NCBI GenBank assembly: GCA_030054095.1
Contig: JASGCO010000002.1
Location: 1 to 64,000 of the forward strand
Length of the DNA stretch: 64,000 bases
From: Sediminibacterium sp.
GTDB lineage: Bacteria > Bacteroidota > Bacteroidia > B-17B0 > Aurantibacillaceae
Reading direction: 5' to 3'
Shown: piece after piece, positions 42,896 to 49,526 of the stretch
Numbering within the stretch: the first letter of the stretch is position 1
Layout of the letters: each line of letters opens with the position of its first letter
Position numbers and translations under genes: made by a program
Notes under the pieces: generated by a model
Told to the model about the DNA's origin: nothing
What the model saw: the letters and a program-made list of their open reading frames with translations, nothing else
Database searches by the model: none

Positions 42896-45800
42896 ATGAA
42901 TACGGAAAACGTAAGAATATTAAACCGCATTGTTGAAATTAATATTGCCAATGTAAAGTATGCCGACATTGAACTATGCGGAAACACCTGTTTTGTAGGA
43001 ACCAATAATTTTGGTAAAACCTCCCTTCAGCGTGCCATCCTGTTTTTTTACAGTGCCAATAGTCGTGGATTAGGGATTGCCCAATCACAAAAAAGTTTTG
43101 AGGAACACTATTTCCGTTACGAAAACTCGTACCTCATTTATGAAATAGCCACAGAAGACAAAAATTTCTTTGTGATGGTGTATCGTCATAACAAACTGGT
43201 ATTCCGTTTTGTGGACGCGCCTTACAATGCCGATTTCTTTTTCAATGCCAATGATGAGGCCATGAAAATCAAGGAAATTGTCTCCGGGATTGAAAAACGC
43301 GGCATTTACGTATCGAATCAGATTGATACTTTTGAACGTTACCGTAACATCATTTATGGGACAGAAACCGATAAACAATTATCAAAATTCCACTTACTGA
43401 AAGGGAATGAAAAATACCAGAACATTCCAAAATCCATTACCAACGTATTTTTAAGTTCTAAAAACAGTATTGACTCCCGTTTTATTAAGGACTTTATTGC
43501 CAACTCGCTTACTACCGAAAATTCAAGCATTCGTTTAGAGCAAGTAGAACGCCAGTTGCGCCAGTTTAACGAAAAATACACGGATATTGAAACCTTCATT
43601 AAAAAAGAAACCCAGCAACTGATTGAACTGATTGATAAAAAATACGATCAGGTGCACCTGCTGAAAGGGTCGCAAATGGAGCTGGCCGATAAACTTGGTA
43701 GCAGTTTACGTTTTGCCGAAACTCAGAACGAAGCCATTCGCGAAGCTTCTAAACGCAAAGAAGAAGAGTTGGAAACCCTTACCAATGACCACGAAAAATT
43801 AACGGAAGACATCGAAAATAAGCAAGGGAATATCCGTGAAGAAATCGGGTATTACGATAAATCCATCCGGGATGCCAATCGCCGGTTACGCGACTACAAA
43901 GACAAAAACATTGATGAAGCTGTTGAAAAAAACGCGGAACGTGAAAAGTTACAGGTAGAATTAAATATTGCCCGCCGTGAGTACGAAAGTCTGACCAGTA
44001 ATGTGGCCAGTATCGAATTAAAATACGCATCGCTGCTTGAACAGTTACGCAACGATAAAATGGCGTACATCAATACCATTAACGCCAAAACCAGCGAAAT
44101 TTTTAACCACTACAATGAACTTCAATTACTCCAGAAAAACGAATATAATAAACGGGATTCTGAATTAAAAAATAAACGTGAAGAAGCGCTGGGCGAGCTC
44201 AACGCGGAAATAACCGCCAAACAAATCGAATTTAATGAGCTTAAAAGCGATGAAAAAGTTATCCGTAATACCCGCTTTTACGAAACAGAGATTAAAGCAC
44301 TCGAAACAGAATTAGCTGAATTACGCGCTATTTCCTACAAAAACAAAAGTGAGCGTGCCATTAAACAAAACATGGTACAAACCTTGCAGCGGGAGTGGGA
44401 AGCCATTGAAGCCAAACTTAAGACTGCGCTGGGGAATGAAATAAACAGGACCAATACCGAAATCATTAAAATTAAAAATGAGATTAAGGAGATTGAAGGT
44501 AAGTTAAATGTGCAACACGATGCCTTTTATGGTTTCCTTGAAAAAAATGTAAAAGACTGGCATCAAACCATCGGAAAAGTAGTTAATGAAAAACTATTGT
44601 TCCGTACCGATATTTCTCCCGAATTAAAAGAAGAAACCGTTAAAACACTTTACGGAGTTAGCCTAAATCTTGAAAATGTTGATGTTATCTCAAAATCCAT
44701 AGAAGAGTACCAATTCGAGAAAAACGAACGTTTAGCGCTGATCCGCGATCTGGAAGAATCACTGAATGCGTTTCAAACAGCCAATAACGAAGAAAAGATG
44801 CTGGCTGCGGATAAGTACGGCAAGCAACTGGGCGAATTTAAAGAAGATGTAAAAGTTCTCACCTACTCACTCGATCTGGCAGATAAACGTGAGAAAAAAT
44901 TAATGGTGGAACTCGAAGACTGGCAAATGAAAGCCGGTAGTGAAATTGAGCAGTCTTTAAGTGGTAACCGCCAGCGCTTAAATATTGTTGAAGAAGAATT
45001 AACCCTACTCAACAAACGGAAAAACAATTTGCTGGATGATTTTAACCGCCAGATGGATCAGTTAAAATCATACAATGAAGATCGCCTTCAGGATTTAAAA
45101 TCCCGTCAGGAAACGGAAATCAGTGAACTGGAAGTTGAAAAGAAAAATCAGGTAAAAGAATTTGAAAGCAAAGAGGAAGAAATCAGTAAAGAAAAAGAAA
45201 CTAATTTTAAATCGAAAGGAGTTGACAGCAAACAACTAAAAGAGGTTGAATCGCGAATGAAAGAGATTCAGGATGCTTTAAAAGAGATTGAGCAATATGC
45301 CCAATTGGTGAGTGATTACCTGAAAGATAAACGTGATATTTTCGATAAACTCCCTGATTTTATACAGAAAAAAGAAGAATACGTTAAAACCAATAACGAA
45401 TTAACCGCTCAACTGGAGGAGGCTACACGTAAGTACAACCTGAAACGCATGGAGTTAAACAAACAAAAACGCGCGTTTGATGAAGAGTTAATTGAGTTTA
45501 ACAACGGGGTAAATTTTTACAGTAATAACTTCCGCGAAACGCCTGTTTACGCCAAGTATTCGGAAATTATTGAACGTGCCGAACCAAAACGTACCAATTA
45601 CAACATTATGGACTTGTGTACGCAGTTGCTGAAAAATGATTCGCATTTTAATGAAGAATATGGAGCCTTCCAGCGTTATGTAAACGATTTTGCAGGCCGT
45701 TTCCGTTTAGAAAACCACTTTAATTTTATTATACGGAACGATGCTACTCAAGGAGAGTATGAGCGCTTTGCTCAAAACCTCAGATCATTTATCAACGAAA

Positions 45801-46585
45801 ATAAGATTGAATTATCCATTGCCGAAACTGCTACACAAATCGGATTAGTTACAGATAGTATTGCCACTAAAGTAAAAGAACTTAGCGGGCAAAAAGATAA
45901 GATCCAACACATCATCAGTTTAATTGCGGAAGATTTCAAGAAAGCGGAATTTGAAGAAAGTAAACTGATTGAGTTTATCAAAATTAAAATTGAAGAATCG
46001 GACAACAAAGTGTACAAGTTGTTGAAACGGATTGAAGAATTCCGAGAGGAACATGGTCTGATTTACAACGAAGGCTTGTTTAACACCGATTATGCGACAG
46101 GAACCAAACGTGAAATCAGCGGACGGGCCGTTAAATTGTTAGAACAATTACGCAGTGCCATTAAAGAACAGGAGCAGGAAGAAATCCGTTTACAGGATCT
46201 ATTCGAGTTAAAATTCAATATTAAAGAGGGAATGAATGAAACCGGCTGGACGCATAAAATTGACAGTATCGGCAGTACGGGTACAGACATTCTGGTAAAA
46301 GCGATCATTTATATTACGCTTTTACACGTATTTATTAAAGAATCCAGTCACCGCAGCAGCAAGGAATTTAAAGTGCATTGTATTATTGACGAGGTAGGTC
46401 AGATTTCGGCGCATTACCTGCGTGAACTTTTAAAGTTTGCCAAAAACCGGAACATTATGATGATTAACGGTTTACCAAATAAAAGCGGACTGGAAAGCCA
46501 TTACAAATACACCTATCAGTTCCGTAAGGAAGACAGTGGAAACGTTCGTATTTTCCCTAGTATTGTAACGGAAGTAGAAGCGTAA
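42896..46585 (+). CDS. MukB/MksB-like SMC ATPase
   Basis: A 1229-residue SMC-type ATPase. The N-terminal head has Walker A GTNNFGKT at 35-42. Long coiled coils run from about residue 215 to 1000, with a break near 540-600 where a small hinge is expected. The C-terminal head has the ABC signature-like DSIGSTGTDILVKAI near 1123-1137 and Walker B VHCIIDE ending in Asp1165-Glu1166. The short hinge and this signature fit the MukB/MksB/JetC branch rather than canonical SMC. With the two upstream genes it should form a DNA-loop-extruding complex for chromosome organisation or defence against plasmids. Confidence 0.88.
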   Translation: MNTENVRILNRIVEINIANVKYADIELCGNTCFVGTNNFGKTSLQRAILFFYSANSRGLGIAQSQKSFEEHYFRYENSYLIYEIATEDKNFFVMVYRHNKLVFRFVDAPYNADFFFNANDEAMKIKEIVSGIEKRGIYVSNQIDTFERYRNIIYGTETDKQLSKFHLLKGNEKYQNIPKSITNVFLSSKNSIDSRFIKDFIANSLTTENSSIRLEQVERQLRQFNEKYTDIETFIKKETQQLIELIDKKYDQVHLLKGSQMELADKLGSSLRFAETQNEAIREASKRKEEELETLTNDHEKLTEDIENKQGNIREEIGYYDKSIRDANRRLRDYKDKNIDEAVEKNAEREKLQVELNIARREYESLTSNVASIELKYASLLEQLRNDKMAYINTINAKTSEIFNHYNELQLLQKNEYNKRDSELKNKREEALGELNAEITAKQIEFNELKSDEKVIRNTRFYETEIKALETELAELRAISYKNKSERAIKQNMVQTLQREWEAIEAKLKTALGNEINRTNTEIIKIKNEIKEIEGKLNVQHDAFYGFLEKNVKDWHQTIGKVVNEKLLFRTDISPELKEETVKTLYGVSLNLENVDVISKSIEEYQFEKNERLALIRDLEESLNAFQTANNEEKMLAADKYGKQLGEFKEDVKVLTYSLDLADKREKKLMVELEDWQMKAGSEIEQSLSGNRQRLNIVEEELTLLNKRKNNLLDDFNRQMDQLKSYNEDRLQDLKSRQETEISELEVEKKNQVKEFESKEEEISKEKETNFKSKGVDSKQLKEVESRMKEIQDALKEIEQYAQLVSDYLKDKRDIFDKLPDFIQKKEEYVKTNNELTAQLEEATRKYNLKRMELNKQKRAFDEELIEFNNGVNFYSNNFRETPVYAKYSEIIERAEPKRTNYNIMDLCTQLLKNDSHFNEEYGAFQRYVNDFAGRFRLENHFNFIIRNDATQGEYERFAQNLRSFINENKIELSIAETATQIGLVTDSIATKVKELSGQKDKIQHIISLIAEDFKKAEFEESKLIEFIKIKIEESDNKVYKLLKRIEEFREEHGLIYNEGLFNTDYATGTKREISGRAVKLLEQLRSAIKEQEQEEIRLQDLFELKFNIKEGMNETGWTHKIDSIGSTGTDILVKAIIYITLLHVFIKESSHRSSKEFKVHCIIDEVGQISAHYLRELLKFAKNRNIMMINGLPNKSGLESHYKYTYQFRKEDSGNVRIFPSIVTEVEA

Positions 46586-46633: not shown

Positions 46634-47008
46634 TTACCCACCTGTATTCCAGGCTACTAAAGACACCCAGATATCATTAAAATCACCATCTGAACCATCT
46701 TCTATTGCCAGATTAAAATACTCACCAACCACGTTTCCACTTGAATCGGTGATATTACCGGATGCAATAGAAGGAATCAACTGGTTGGAACTAGGAACAT
46801 TGATGGTTAGCTTAAGATTAGAACCTCCGATTGTTGCTGCTCCTGGCGTTGGAGGAGGCAAAGGGTTTGTACTTTGCCTATTACCATTAATATAGGTTGT
46901 TGATGAATCGGCAAGTGTTACAAACACTTGATTAGCGGCCTGTGTTGTCCAGGACCAGAACATGATTTGCCCTTTATTGAAAGGAACATTAAAATTACTT
47001 GTTGCCAT
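46634..47008 (-). CDS. LecB-type (PF07472) calcium-mediated lectin
   Basis: A 124-residue protein without signal peptide. The C-terminus reads IEDGSDGDFNDIWVSLVAWN and ends in GG. This matches the calcium and sugar site of Pseudomonas LecB (EDGTDNDYNDAVVVINW, ending in Gly): Glu103, Asp107, Asp109, Asn111 and Asp112 align with the five ligands, and a C-terminal Gly can supply the carboxylate in the dimer partner. The N-terminal Asn ligand of LecB is not clearly conserved and a proline-rich insert (PLPPPTPG) lengthens the middle, so sugar preference (fucose or mannose in LecB) is open. Last gene of the minus-strand small-protein island, preceded by leader A and closed by a strong terminator. 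Confidence 0.75.
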   Translation of the reverse strand: MATSNFNVPFNKGQIMFWSWTTQAANQVFVTLADSSTTYINGNRQSTNPLPPPTPGAATIGGSNLKLTINVPSSNQLIPSIASGNITDSSGNVVGEYFNLAIEDGSDGDFNDIWVSLVAWNTGG

Positions 47009-47027: not shown

Positions 47028-47090
47028 AATTCTTACTCATAAGGCTTTTCAGTTCCGCCTCCCGTTGATTGAACTGATGGGATATCAGTT
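47028..47090 (-). promoter_or_regulatory. Conserved leader element A upstream of the lectin gene
   Basis: In mRNA sense it has a hairpin (AACTGAT-ATCCC-ATCAGTT, 47072-47090), a linker, the block CTGAAAAGCC and a small hairpin CTTA-TGAG-TAAG (47032-47043), then AATTAA. It ends about 20 nt before the lectin ATG and starts about 42 nt after the stop of the preceding gene, so it is intercistronic. The same order appears in elements B and C. Confidence 0.6.
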
Positions 47091-47132
47091 TGTTTAAAAA
47101 CAGCTTACTATTGCGTCTCTTTCGTATTCTGA

Positions 47133-47792
47133 CTAAACCAGTTGTTGAAGAAATACAGCAGGCTCTCCCGCGCTTACACAGGTAAGGTTACCGAACGAAA
47201 TCCGGTTTCCATCCTTATTTGTGCCGGTGATCATAACGTTTTTCATCCCTGGTTTAAGCGGGCTTACACGTTTGCCACTTATCACCTCTACACCCATCTC
47301 GTGCGGCGTTCCGGTTCTGGTAGCAATAATGTTTCCTACTCCATTTTCAATAAGCATAATCTGACCGATAGCCGGAGGAGGGAAAGGTTGACTTACAGTA
47401 ATATTGGTAAGCGCACCTAATGTAATGTACTGCGGCGCAGATATACTTCCCGACTCCGCAACCGGCGCGTCGGCCGATTGAATCATCGTAATAGTTCTTC
47501 CAAATTTTGGCGTTTTGTCAGCCTCGGTGCAATACATCCAGGGTGTTGTAAACGACTGTCCATCTTCGGTTTGCCCAATAGCGACGTACTGCTTATGAAC
47601 TTCGAGTGGCGCATTACTTTTACCACCTGATAAATCCAGGTTGTAAAACACAGAACGAATCAGCGTTCCTACAGCATATGTACCTGAAGCTCCCTCCAGA
47701 ACAGGAGGAATAACAGGTCCAACGCCTCCTCCATTCCATTGGATATAAGGATAGACATTGACATTTTTTACTTTAACAGGAATTGGTTGCAT
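47133..47792 (-). CDS. Hypothetical protein of the lectin island
   Basis: A 219-residue protein with no signal peptide or membrane segment, rich in Gly, Pro, Val and Thr and probably all-beta. Features include YPYIQWNGGGVGPVIPPVL at the N-terminus, LSGGKSNAPLEVHKQYVAIG, and FPPPAIGQIMLIENGVGN. The PPPAIG string also occurs in the neighbouring DUF1842-like protein (VPPPAIGSYL). I do not recognise a family. It follows the DUF1842-like gene by 39 nt without its own leader element, so these two genes form one translation unit within the island. Function unknown. Confidence 0.75.
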   Translation of the reverse strand: MQPIPVKVKNVNVYPYIQWNGGGVGPVIPPVLEGASGTYAVGTLIRSVFYNLDLSGGKSNAPLEVHKQYVAIGQTEDGQSFTTPWMYCTEADKTPKFGRTITMIQSADAPVAESGSISAPQYITLGALTNITVSQPFPPPAIGQIMLIENGVGNIIATRTGTPHEMGVEVISGKRVSPLKPGMKNVMITGTNKDGNRISFGNLTCVSAGEPAVFLQQLV

Positions 47793-47831
47793 AGTTTTTG
47801 TTTTTAGTTATGTAAATTATTTATTAGTGCA

Positions 47832-48254
47832 TTAACTCTTTTTCACAGGCACATTCTCAACATCATTCCCTCCGTAAGAAAAACTTCCCATTCCGTTCCA
47901 ATTATCATCAATGGCCATACTTGCCGAAAAATGGGCAAGATATGATCCAATTGCCGGAGGAGGAACAGATACGACGTATTCTCCTTCCAGATAAACGACC
48001 TGTGTCACTTTTCCATATCCGGTAGAACGAATCGTCCCTTTCACGTTACGAATAACAATATCTCCATATGGAGGAGCAATGACCTGTGTTATGTGAACTG
48101 TACCATTTACGCTGTTTTGCGAAGGCACTACTACCAGCGAAAAATGCATAATAGGTGCTCCCGGCATTCCTAAATTTCCGGCTGTTCCATTTACCAGATA
48201 CGCCCCGGCAAGTACTTTACTTGATCCGGATGTTTTTGTTGCAGTTGTTGTCAT
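47832..48254 (-). CDS. DUF1842-like small beta protein
   Basis: A 140-residue protein without signal peptide. Landmarks are YLVNGTAGNLGMPGAPIMHF, SVNGTVHITQVIAPPYGDIV and DDNWNGMGSFSYGGNDVENV, a pattern that resembles DUF1842 from memory. A paralogue in the same island (49128-49526) shares the YxVNGxxGN start, the HFSL strand, GDIV and the WxGxGxFxYG-NVP end. The strands suggest a beta sandwich. DUF1842 has no known function. The gene has leader element B and a possible promoter upstream and is first of the B transcript. Confidence 0.6.
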   Translation of the reverse strand: MTTTATKTSGSSKVLAGAYLVNGTAGNLGMPGAPIMHFSLVVVPSQNSVNGTVHITQVIAPPYGDIVIRNVKGTIRSTGYGKVTQVVYLEGEYVVSVPPPAIGSYLAHFSASMAIDDNWNGMGSFSYGGNDVENVPVKKS

Positions 48255-48267
48255 TTGGTTATGTTTT

Positions 48268-48329
48268 AATTCTTACTCGTAAGGTTTTTCAGTTCCACCT
48301 TCCATTACGTAAACTGAATGGAATCAGTT
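48268..48329 (-). promoter_or_regulatory. Conserved leader element B upstream of the DUF1842-like gene
   Basis: Same architecture as element A: hairpin AACTGA-TTCCAT-TCAGTT (48312-48329), block CTGAAAAACC, small hairpin CTTA-CGAG-TAAG, then AATTAA, ending 13 nt before the ATG at 48254. Identity to A is high and most differences are transitions. A further 6-bp hairpin (AAGTGG...CCACTT) lies just upstream. Confidence 0.6.
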
Positions 48330-48377
48330 CGTTTTTTTAAGTGGTTACTGCTCCACTTCATAAAAGCTTTTACATTA

Positions 48378-48385
48378 CAAAATTA
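48378..48385 (-). promoter_or_regulatory. Putative -7 promoter box TAATTTTG for the leader-B transcript
   Basis: On the minus strand TAATTTTG fits TAnnTTTG. It would start a transcript with a leader of about 115 nt that contains element B. The -33 region is unconvincing. The gap 48255-48607 holds only this, element B and a terminator. Confidence 0.4.
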
Positions 48386-48550
48386 CATCCGTGCTACAGG
48401 CATTCCTACCATATAATTGTGTGATTTAAGAATCACGCAATTACTTCCGCTTTAAATTTATCCGGGTATATATATTGACACATAAATATGTCCTCTATTA
48501 AGCATGATTTATATCTGCATCCCGATAATTCTTCTACATCAAAATAAATA

Positions 48551-48582
48551 AACAGGGCCTGAAGAATTCTCCAGGCCCTGTT
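48551..48582 (-). terminator. Terminator downstream of the 48608-49024 gene
   Basis: AACAGGGCCTG-loop-CAGGCCCTGTT gives a perfect 11-bp stem with a 10-nt loop. On the minus strand it is followed by TTTATTTATTTT and lies 26 nt beyond the gene's stop. Confidence 0.8.
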
Positions 48583-48607
48583 ATATCTTATATATATTCT
48601 AAAGTAT

Positions 48608-49024
48608 TTATCCTTTACTGCAAAATGCATCCCAGGTTGTCCAGAATTTGGCATTAGATCCACCTAGTAAAGGGTGTTCATCGGCTACAATTCCTACCAT
48701 AGAAGCACAATTTGAATTACAACCAATTTGTGTCATACTTCCTGGCATAGCGGGAATATCTATCATTGCTGGTGGGTTGATAGAATAATTCATTTGTTGC
48801 ACCTTTATTTCGAATATTCCAGACAATCCAGGAGTTTGAATAGTTTTAGTTGGGTTATTAGATGTAATAGAATCTGACCAATTCCCTTGTGAAAAAGTTA
48901 CCGACCATTCCTTTACAACCTGAGCTGTATTGTTTTGAGGAGAGAGATATACCCAGAACTGGGCGCCTTTCCCTAACGTTAATGTTGTACCTGCATTTGG
49001 TGTTCCTAATGTGTTAGTTGCCAT
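48608..49024 (-). CDS. Hypothetical protein of the lectin island
   Basis: A 138-residue protein, probably all-beta, with no signal peptide. It begins MATNTLGTPNAGTTLTLGKG, much like the lectin's MATSNF start, contains WVYLSPQNNTAQVVKEW and IFEIKVQQMNYS, and has three Cys (two in GCNSNC, one near the C-terminus). No family is recognised. The Asn/Thr-rich N-terminus and strand pattern are compatible with a carbohydrate-binding sandwich, but there is no calcium loop like that of the lectin. It is preceded by leader element C and followed by its own terminator. Confidence 0.7.
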   Translation of the reverse strand: MATNTLGTPNAGTTLTLGKGAQFWVYLSPQNNTAQVVKEWSVTFSQGNWSDSITSNNPTKTIQTPGLSGIFEIKVQQMNYSINPPAMIDIPAMPGSMTQIGCNSNCASMVGIVADEHPLLGGSNAKFWTTWDAFCSKG

Positions 49025-49040
49025 AACTGATTGTTTTAAT

Positions 49041-49099
49041 TTTTAGTCCTTACTCTCTAGGCTTTTCAGGATTACGCCCCGCTTTACTGTGCGGACAGT
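49041..49099 (-). promoter_or_regulatory. Conserved leader element C upstream of the 48608-49024 gene
   Basis: In mRNA sense it has a hairpin ACTGT-CCGC-ACAGT (49086-49099), then the block CTGAAAAGCC and a small stem CCTA...TAAGG, ending about 17 nt before the ATG. The primary sequence diverges from A and B, but both stems are kept by different base pairs. It lies between two genes of one strand. Confidence 0.55.
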
Positions 49100-49127: not shown

Positions 49128-49526
49128 CTAATACGTATGAATGGGTACATTTTTTATACACTCCGATCCATAATTAAATAATCCGTTTCCCTTCCATGTT
49201 TCATCTATTACTATCTGCGCTGAAAACTGTTCTATTATAGATTCAGAAACACCAGAACGTTTTAAAAAAGCTCCATTCAGTTTTATAGTCTTCATGCTGG
49301 TTGAATCTATTGAATCAATACATCCGTTTAAGTTTTTTACAACAATATCTCCAAATGGCGTTGCCTGGGCAATATTCACAATTCCGCTTACATAACTTTT
49401 ATCTGGGTCAATAAGCAGCGAAAAGTGCATTAAAGGTGCCATCTGAACTTCAACATTACCTAAAATACCATTGACAATATACGTCTTAGGGGAAGGCTCA
49501 TTTCTATCTTTTACATTTTGCTTCAT
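49128..49526 (-). CDS. DUF1842-like small protein, second copy
   Basis: A 132-residue paralogue of the protein at 47832-48254. Shared blocks are YIVNGILGNV, APLMHFSLLI, ATPFGDIVVKNLNG, FSAQIVIDETWKGNGLF and NYGSECIKNVP. Overall divergence is high, so the duplication is old. No signal peptide. It is the first gene of the minus-strand island, 210 bp from the divergent lipoprotein-kinase operon. Its upstream region has an 8-9 nt loop hairpin (ACAGA...TCTGT) but only a weak trace of the conserved leader block. Confidence 0.6.
   Translation of the reverse strand: MKQNVKDRNEPSPKTYIVNGILGNVEVQMAPLMHFSLLIDPDKSYVSGIVNIAQATPFGDIVVKNLNGCIDSIDSTSMKTIKLNGAFLKRSGVSESIIEQFSAQIVIDETWKGNGLFNYGSECIKNVPIHTY

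Follow-up and report, generated by a model that had tools for sequence, protein, structure and literature searches.

Three divergent members of the DUF805/DUF805b RNA clan in Sediminibacterium and the predicted pseudoknots of their long form

In this study we describe three related minus-strand elements of a Sediminibacterium sp. contig, within the 64,000-nucleotide stretch of DNA that was analysed (the window). By sequence homology, they almost certainly belong to the DUF805/DUF805b RNA clan, as divergent members of its long form. From their sequences and those of their relatives, the elements are likely to be cis-acting 5′ leader RNAs, predicted to work as a switch on translation initiation. 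The DUF805 RNA family is already in Rfam and the copies reported here are not a new class; the long form and both pseudoknots look new, as judged solely against the Rfam model as printed by cmscan.

Three elements, their genes and their clan

The copies lie at 47028..47090 (A), 48268..48356 (B) and 49041..49099 (C), ahead of start codons at 47008, 48254 and 49024, respectively. The preliminary description had placed three copies at these sites and ATG distances, and the sequence bears this out. Moreover, an external profile (R1), a sequence-only model of 45 elements that all come from other genomes and none from this one, picks out exactly these three sites in the 64 kb searched, with E values of 4e-9, 7.9e-7 and 3.5e-4. 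The 5′ hairpin of copy B, P1 (48341-48356), had not been included in that description.

In Rfam, the three copies fall in clan CL00115 (DUF805/DUF805b) with E values of 2.4e-4 to 1.1e-3, under the curated scores. The DUF805 model (RF03081) gives 36.8, 35.3 and 29.0 bits for A, B and C (whole-genome E 8.5e-5, 1.9e-4 and 0.0057), all below the gathering score of 51.1, and in copy B its match spans 48266-48361. The DUF805b model (RF02914) gives 25.3, 25.5 and 23.8 bits, all below the gathering score of 35.6. A core profile drawn from other genomes matches all three copies significantly, and intermediates carrying both the P1 hairpin and the long-form hairpin P1b, at about 40-47 bits, bridge the window copies to members over the cut-off. 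The element is thus not unique to this island but belongs to the clan. Other Rfam matches nearby (McaS, MicC and others) lie mostly on or around a terminator hairpin, and we regard them as chance matches. The single-sequence folding energies of the three copies are no better than those of shuffles (z -0.95, -0.82 and -0.05); energy alone does not discriminate here, and would have missed the structure.

Each copy precedes a gene on the same strand: copy A a protein of 124 aa without a Pfam family at cut-off (46634..47008), copy B a DUF1842 protein of 140 aa (47832..48254, E 4.8e-17) and copy C a protein of 138 aa of no known family (48608..49024). The earlier label of a lectin island is not supported by Pfam or NCBIfam, which give two DUF1842 genes and no family for the others. 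The second DUF1842 gene (49128-49526, minus strand) stands at the head of the island and has no recognisable element before it, and a large DUF3584 ATPase-like gene (42896-46585, plus strand) is convergent with the island. A long G+C-rich inverted repeat with a T-rich tract behind it (48553..48580, minus strand), between the gene of copy C and copy B, is read as a putative intrinsic terminator, which would imply a separate promoter for copy B.

Copies A and B are alike over about 60 nt and islands with several copies exist, so that the similarity might be suspected to be a by-product of recent gene duplication that included the flanks. The three downstream proteins are mutually dissimilar in pairwise comparison (best E 0.63, 3.1 and 0.41), and hence the likeness of the elements is not due to duplicated flanks. 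Homologous RNAs precede unrelated genes across the phylum as well, and as a full explanation duplication is refuted and may be regarded as most improbable; the original claim withstood this check.

A core pseudoknot and an additional hairpin

All three copies contain a GGC/GCC helix (S1; GGT/ACC in B) whose 3′ strand is preceded by the unpaired block GAAAA and followed by GAGTA. In the wider family, the bases immediately 5′ of GAAAA pair with those immediately 3′ of GAGTA to form a second helix, S2. Among 120 elements the first position (m1-p1) is paired in 118, the second (m2-p2) in 116 and the third (m3-p3) in 72, counts that were not attained at any of the three positions in 2000 shuffles. 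The pairs vary: the first is C-G, T-A or T-G, the second C-G, T-A, A-T or G-C. Across the same 120 elements, positions m4-p4 to m6-p6 pair no more than expected by chance. As S2 crosses S1, the two helices make an H-type pseudoknot. The pairing set took in only elements with intact GAAAA and GAGTA, and the invariance of these blocks is therefore partly a matter of selection; the pairing was not selected in this way.

A hairpin, P1, is often present at the 5′ end of family elements, and a second pseudoknot arises where its loop (AG-n1-n2-n3-AG) pairs with the two bases that adjoin S1 on the 5′ side. This helix, S3, occurs as CC/GG, TC/GA, AC/GT and CT/AG, and is formed in 74 of 82 cases against 53.6 expected (sd 1.9). 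In 34 short-form relatives derived with a covariance model, the four-helix model leaves 93.6% of cells paired, with two-sided changes at 9 of its 12 pairs. Its covariation score is 0.421, compared with 0.166 for shuffles (sd 0.017), which leave sequence relatedness in, and with 0.02-0.14 for slid partners, which remove it. We hold the S1/S2/S3 fold predicted from these comparisons to be correct with high confidence: a compact, conserved, aptamer-like structure with invariant unpaired bases.

These results revise the fold first proposed, in which a leading hairpin was followed by a second small one of the type CTTA-nGAG-TAAG. The first half stands: the hairpin, here P1b, is present in all three copies, and its loop additionally pairs with what had been called the linker. 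The second half does not. The small hairpin is complete in only 19 of 120 relatives and, in the 34 relatives used for covariation, shows no compensatory change and scores like shuffles; unsupported as a hairpin, the same bases belong to the pseudoknot instead.

P1b defines a long form of the element, found in the window copies and in about twenty others, in which it is inserted before S1. Here the second pseudoknot is made by a helix of 4-8 bp (S3b) between the loop of P1b and the bases that directly adjoin S1 on the 5′ side. The sequence of this helix differs nearly every time, being for instance TTCGC/GCGAA, TCCCGAC/GTCGGGA or TTTATCA/TGATAAA in other elements. For elements selected without using this pairing, S3b averages 4.25 bp; swapping loops and targets lowers the mean to 2.77 (sd 0.18), and the highest swap gives 3.36. 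In a further variant, noticed by eye at six loci, an ordinary hairpin of the CCTGA/TCAGG or CCCGG/CCGGG type adjoins S1 and replaces P1 or P1b.

In copy A, P1b is formed by 47084-47090 pairing with 47072-47078, and its loop TCCC (47079-47082) pairs with the GGGA immediately 5′ of S1; S1 is GAGGC/GCCTT, with its 5′ strand at 47057-47061 and its 3′ strand running from 47045 down, and S2 is CT/AG, of 2 bp. Copy B is the only one with a recognised P1 (GTGG-AG...-CCAC type; GTGGAGCAGTAACCAC), which an A-rich linker separates from P1b at 48311-48330. Its S3b reaches 7 bp (TTCCATT/AATGGAA), S1 is AAGGT/ACCTT, and S2 is again CT/AG, of 2 bp, around the same GAAAA and GAGTA. In copy C, P1b is ACTG/CAGT, S3b CCGC/GCGG, S1 GGGC/GCCT and S2 TCCT/AGGA, the latter of 4 bp and spanning GAAAA and GAGTA. 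Copy C had been said to rebuild both stems with different pairs; this applies to P1b, S3b, S1 and S2 but not to CTTA/TAAG, which is not rebuilt.

With DUF805 RNA (RF03081), the elements share the P1 hairpin (as recognised in copy B), the A-rich linker, ACGG, the GGC/GCC helix, GAAAA, GAGTAGG and the site before start codons. The window copies differ by the inserted P1b, whose loop pairs with bases 5′ of S1, and A and C in that no P1 is recognised in them; furthermore, the Rfam model as printed by cmscan holds P1 and the GGC/GCC helix only, without pseudoknots. DUF805b RNA (RF02914, same clan) has the S1/S2 core pseudoknot with GAAAA and GAGTA; it lacks P1, and its segment before GAGTA is often longer, 9-10 nt rather than 7. 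The SAM-II, SAM-V and preQ1 classes likewise place a short H-type pseudoknot in a leader beside the start codon, and SAM-V is reported to control translation (PMC6061858). The window copies match none of the Rfam families of these classes, and differ from them in that the Shine-Dalgarno sequence is missing or outside the fold and that the genes have no metabolic theme.

Placement before unrelated genes and spread across phyla

In 110 of 118 cases, S2 ends 15-25 nt before the ATG; the spacer between fold and ATG is 63% A and 3% G. The proteins encoded downstream have no common sequence (114 and 110 sampled, mean column identity 4%); these two samples match 30 and 42 Pfam families, respectively, among them TRL, PixA, DUF5684, TM2, bacteriorhodopsin, PKD, Yip1 and DUF1842. 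With so many unrelated genes, the conservation of the element is not explained by inheritance alongside any one of them. In 4 of the 114 family-level downstream genes, a DUF805 or DUF805b RNA lies directly 5′ of a bacteriorhodopsin family gene.

The repeats could instead be a DNA-level operator or promoter that only resembles hairpins. TAnnTTTG-like boxes are weakly enriched 9-23 nt upstream of P1, which shows that promoters are nearby; compensatory changes, however, link distant positions in several helices, and orientation and distance are fixed relative to the ATG and not to a promoter. This reading is largely refuted and very improbable. The stricter idea of a Bacteroidota promoter box at a set place upstream of P1 was dropped because of the weak enrichment. 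Similar sequences of the GGCTGACCACCTAATGTGACA type occur 10-30 nt upstream of P1 in several genomes (five loci), and are perhaps a regulator or promoter site.

The genome itself holds about 15 copies of the element. Outside the window, four are on contig C69 (284-288 kb) and others on C3, C41, C49 (375 kb), C2, C38, C6, C67 and C46, and RF02914 is over its cut-off at four other places in the genome. The C69 copies form a second island (284482-287435) of four long-form elements, each before a different small protein; one of these proteins belongs to the PixA family and another weakly matches baseplate Gp10.

In genomes of the same taxonomic family, RF03081 is found in 50 of 87 and RF02914 in 68 of 87. 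Across the phylum, RF03081 occurs in 59 of 395 genomes (E <= 1e-5, strict filters), and among 14 control genomes in only one, the sole Bacteroides. The exact pattern, searched in 84,980 species, gave at least 118 stretches, in Flavobacterium, Chryseobacterium, Tenacibaculum, Aquimarina, Pedobacter, Chitinophaga, Algoriphagus and Bacteroidales MAGs, as well as in Ignavibacteria and Kapabacteria MAGs. The expectation that a search would find further copies is thus upheld, both in the genome and across Bacteroidota.

The RNA also occurs outside these groups. It is carried by 5 of 199 sampled Pseudomonas genomes, every one above cut-off (five loci in Pseudomonas and relatives were collected), by Enterobacter sp. 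Ag1 and by the conjugative plasmid pNK6d of Bradyrhizobium diazoefficiens (62.2 bits, locus L310:2914-3270). In Pseudomonas, Enterobacter and pNK6d it is of the short form and precedes a cystatin-like gene of about 90 aa (weak cystatin matches), which also follows the RNA in a Pedobacter locus and in one long-form locus. The copies in Proteobacteria retain the fold, nearly all have a GGAG Shine-Dalgarno sequence in the spacer between fold and ATG, and the Pseudomonas element sits upstream of the Shine-Dalgarno sequence, not over it. From these sequences, the RNA and the cystatin-like gene appear to have moved together into Proteobacteria, which argues, without proving it, that the RNA needs no phylum-specific partner. 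On pNK6d the pair is flanked by annotated transposases. Seven IMG/VR contigs (L279-L285) also carry the RNA with the cystatin-like gene; the protein they encode has no match in the deposited phage collection, and these contigs may hence be mis-called bacterial DNA.

A predicted control of translation initiation

One orientation, one distance and many unrelated genes point above all to cis-regulation of translation initiation. At the outset it had been proposed that a structured leader acts after transcription has started, probably on translation; covariation across genomes, fixed orientation and fixed ATG distance support it well, and we consider an action on translation quite probable. A signal, more probably a small molecule than a protein, would be bound by this compact structure, in which GAAAA and GAGTA are invariant and unpaired. 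Depending on how the RNA is folded where the 30S footprint has its upstream edge, translation initiation of the next gene would then be raised or lowered. The sensing of a signal is inferred from the compactness of the fold and the conservation of its unpaired bases. A small-molecule riboswitch is a plausible prediction to which we give slightly less than an even chance. The regulated genes show no metabolic theme, which would be atypical of a riboswitch for a metabolite. No alternative pairing with the start region stood out as conserved, and the effect of the fold on the ribosome is thus not explained. It also counts against the proposal that the window copies are below the gathering scores, that S2 has only 2 bp in A and B, and that no P1 is recognised in A and C.

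A conserved RNA-binding protein might instead recognise GAAAA and GAGTA in the pseudoknot and repress or activate translation of the regulon. A set of dozens of unrelated genes without a metabolic theme would fit such a protein, and the strict ATG distance suits an operator near the ribosome site. The RNA is, however, retained in Pseudomonas, Enterobacter and the Bradyrhizobium plasmid, where a Bacteroidota-specific protein would be absent; unless the protein is universal, this makes the explanation rather doubtful. It is also unlikely that the element is a constitutive enhancer, recruiting ribosomes in place of the Shine-Dalgarno contacts missing in Bacteroidota and sensing nothing. The constant place at the edge of the 30S footprint, the A-rich spacer and the wide range of genes served would agree with this, but the element is retained in Pseudomonas despite a normal Shine-Dalgarno sequence, the majority of genes in these genomes lack it, and its invariant unpaired bases suggest specific recognition.

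Returning to a signal-sensing leader, we tentatively propose that the DUF805 clan could be one widespread riboswitch class, responding to a general signal such as growth state or a signalling nucleotide and controlling translation across Bacteroidota. It would be assembled in modules, as a chain of pseudoknots whose hairpin loops each pair with the base of the helix that follows; the long form would add a further hairpin to this chain. It would also be self-contained enough to move between phyla with its gene. Little is understood of translation control in this phylum, and an orphan leader RNA that precedes dozens of unrelated genes, in up to more than 10 copies per genome, is a candidate for a global regulator there. 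The corrected fold, the long-form subclass and the natural copies in Pseudomonas and on the conjugative Bradyrhizobium plasmid offer direct routes for seeking its signal.
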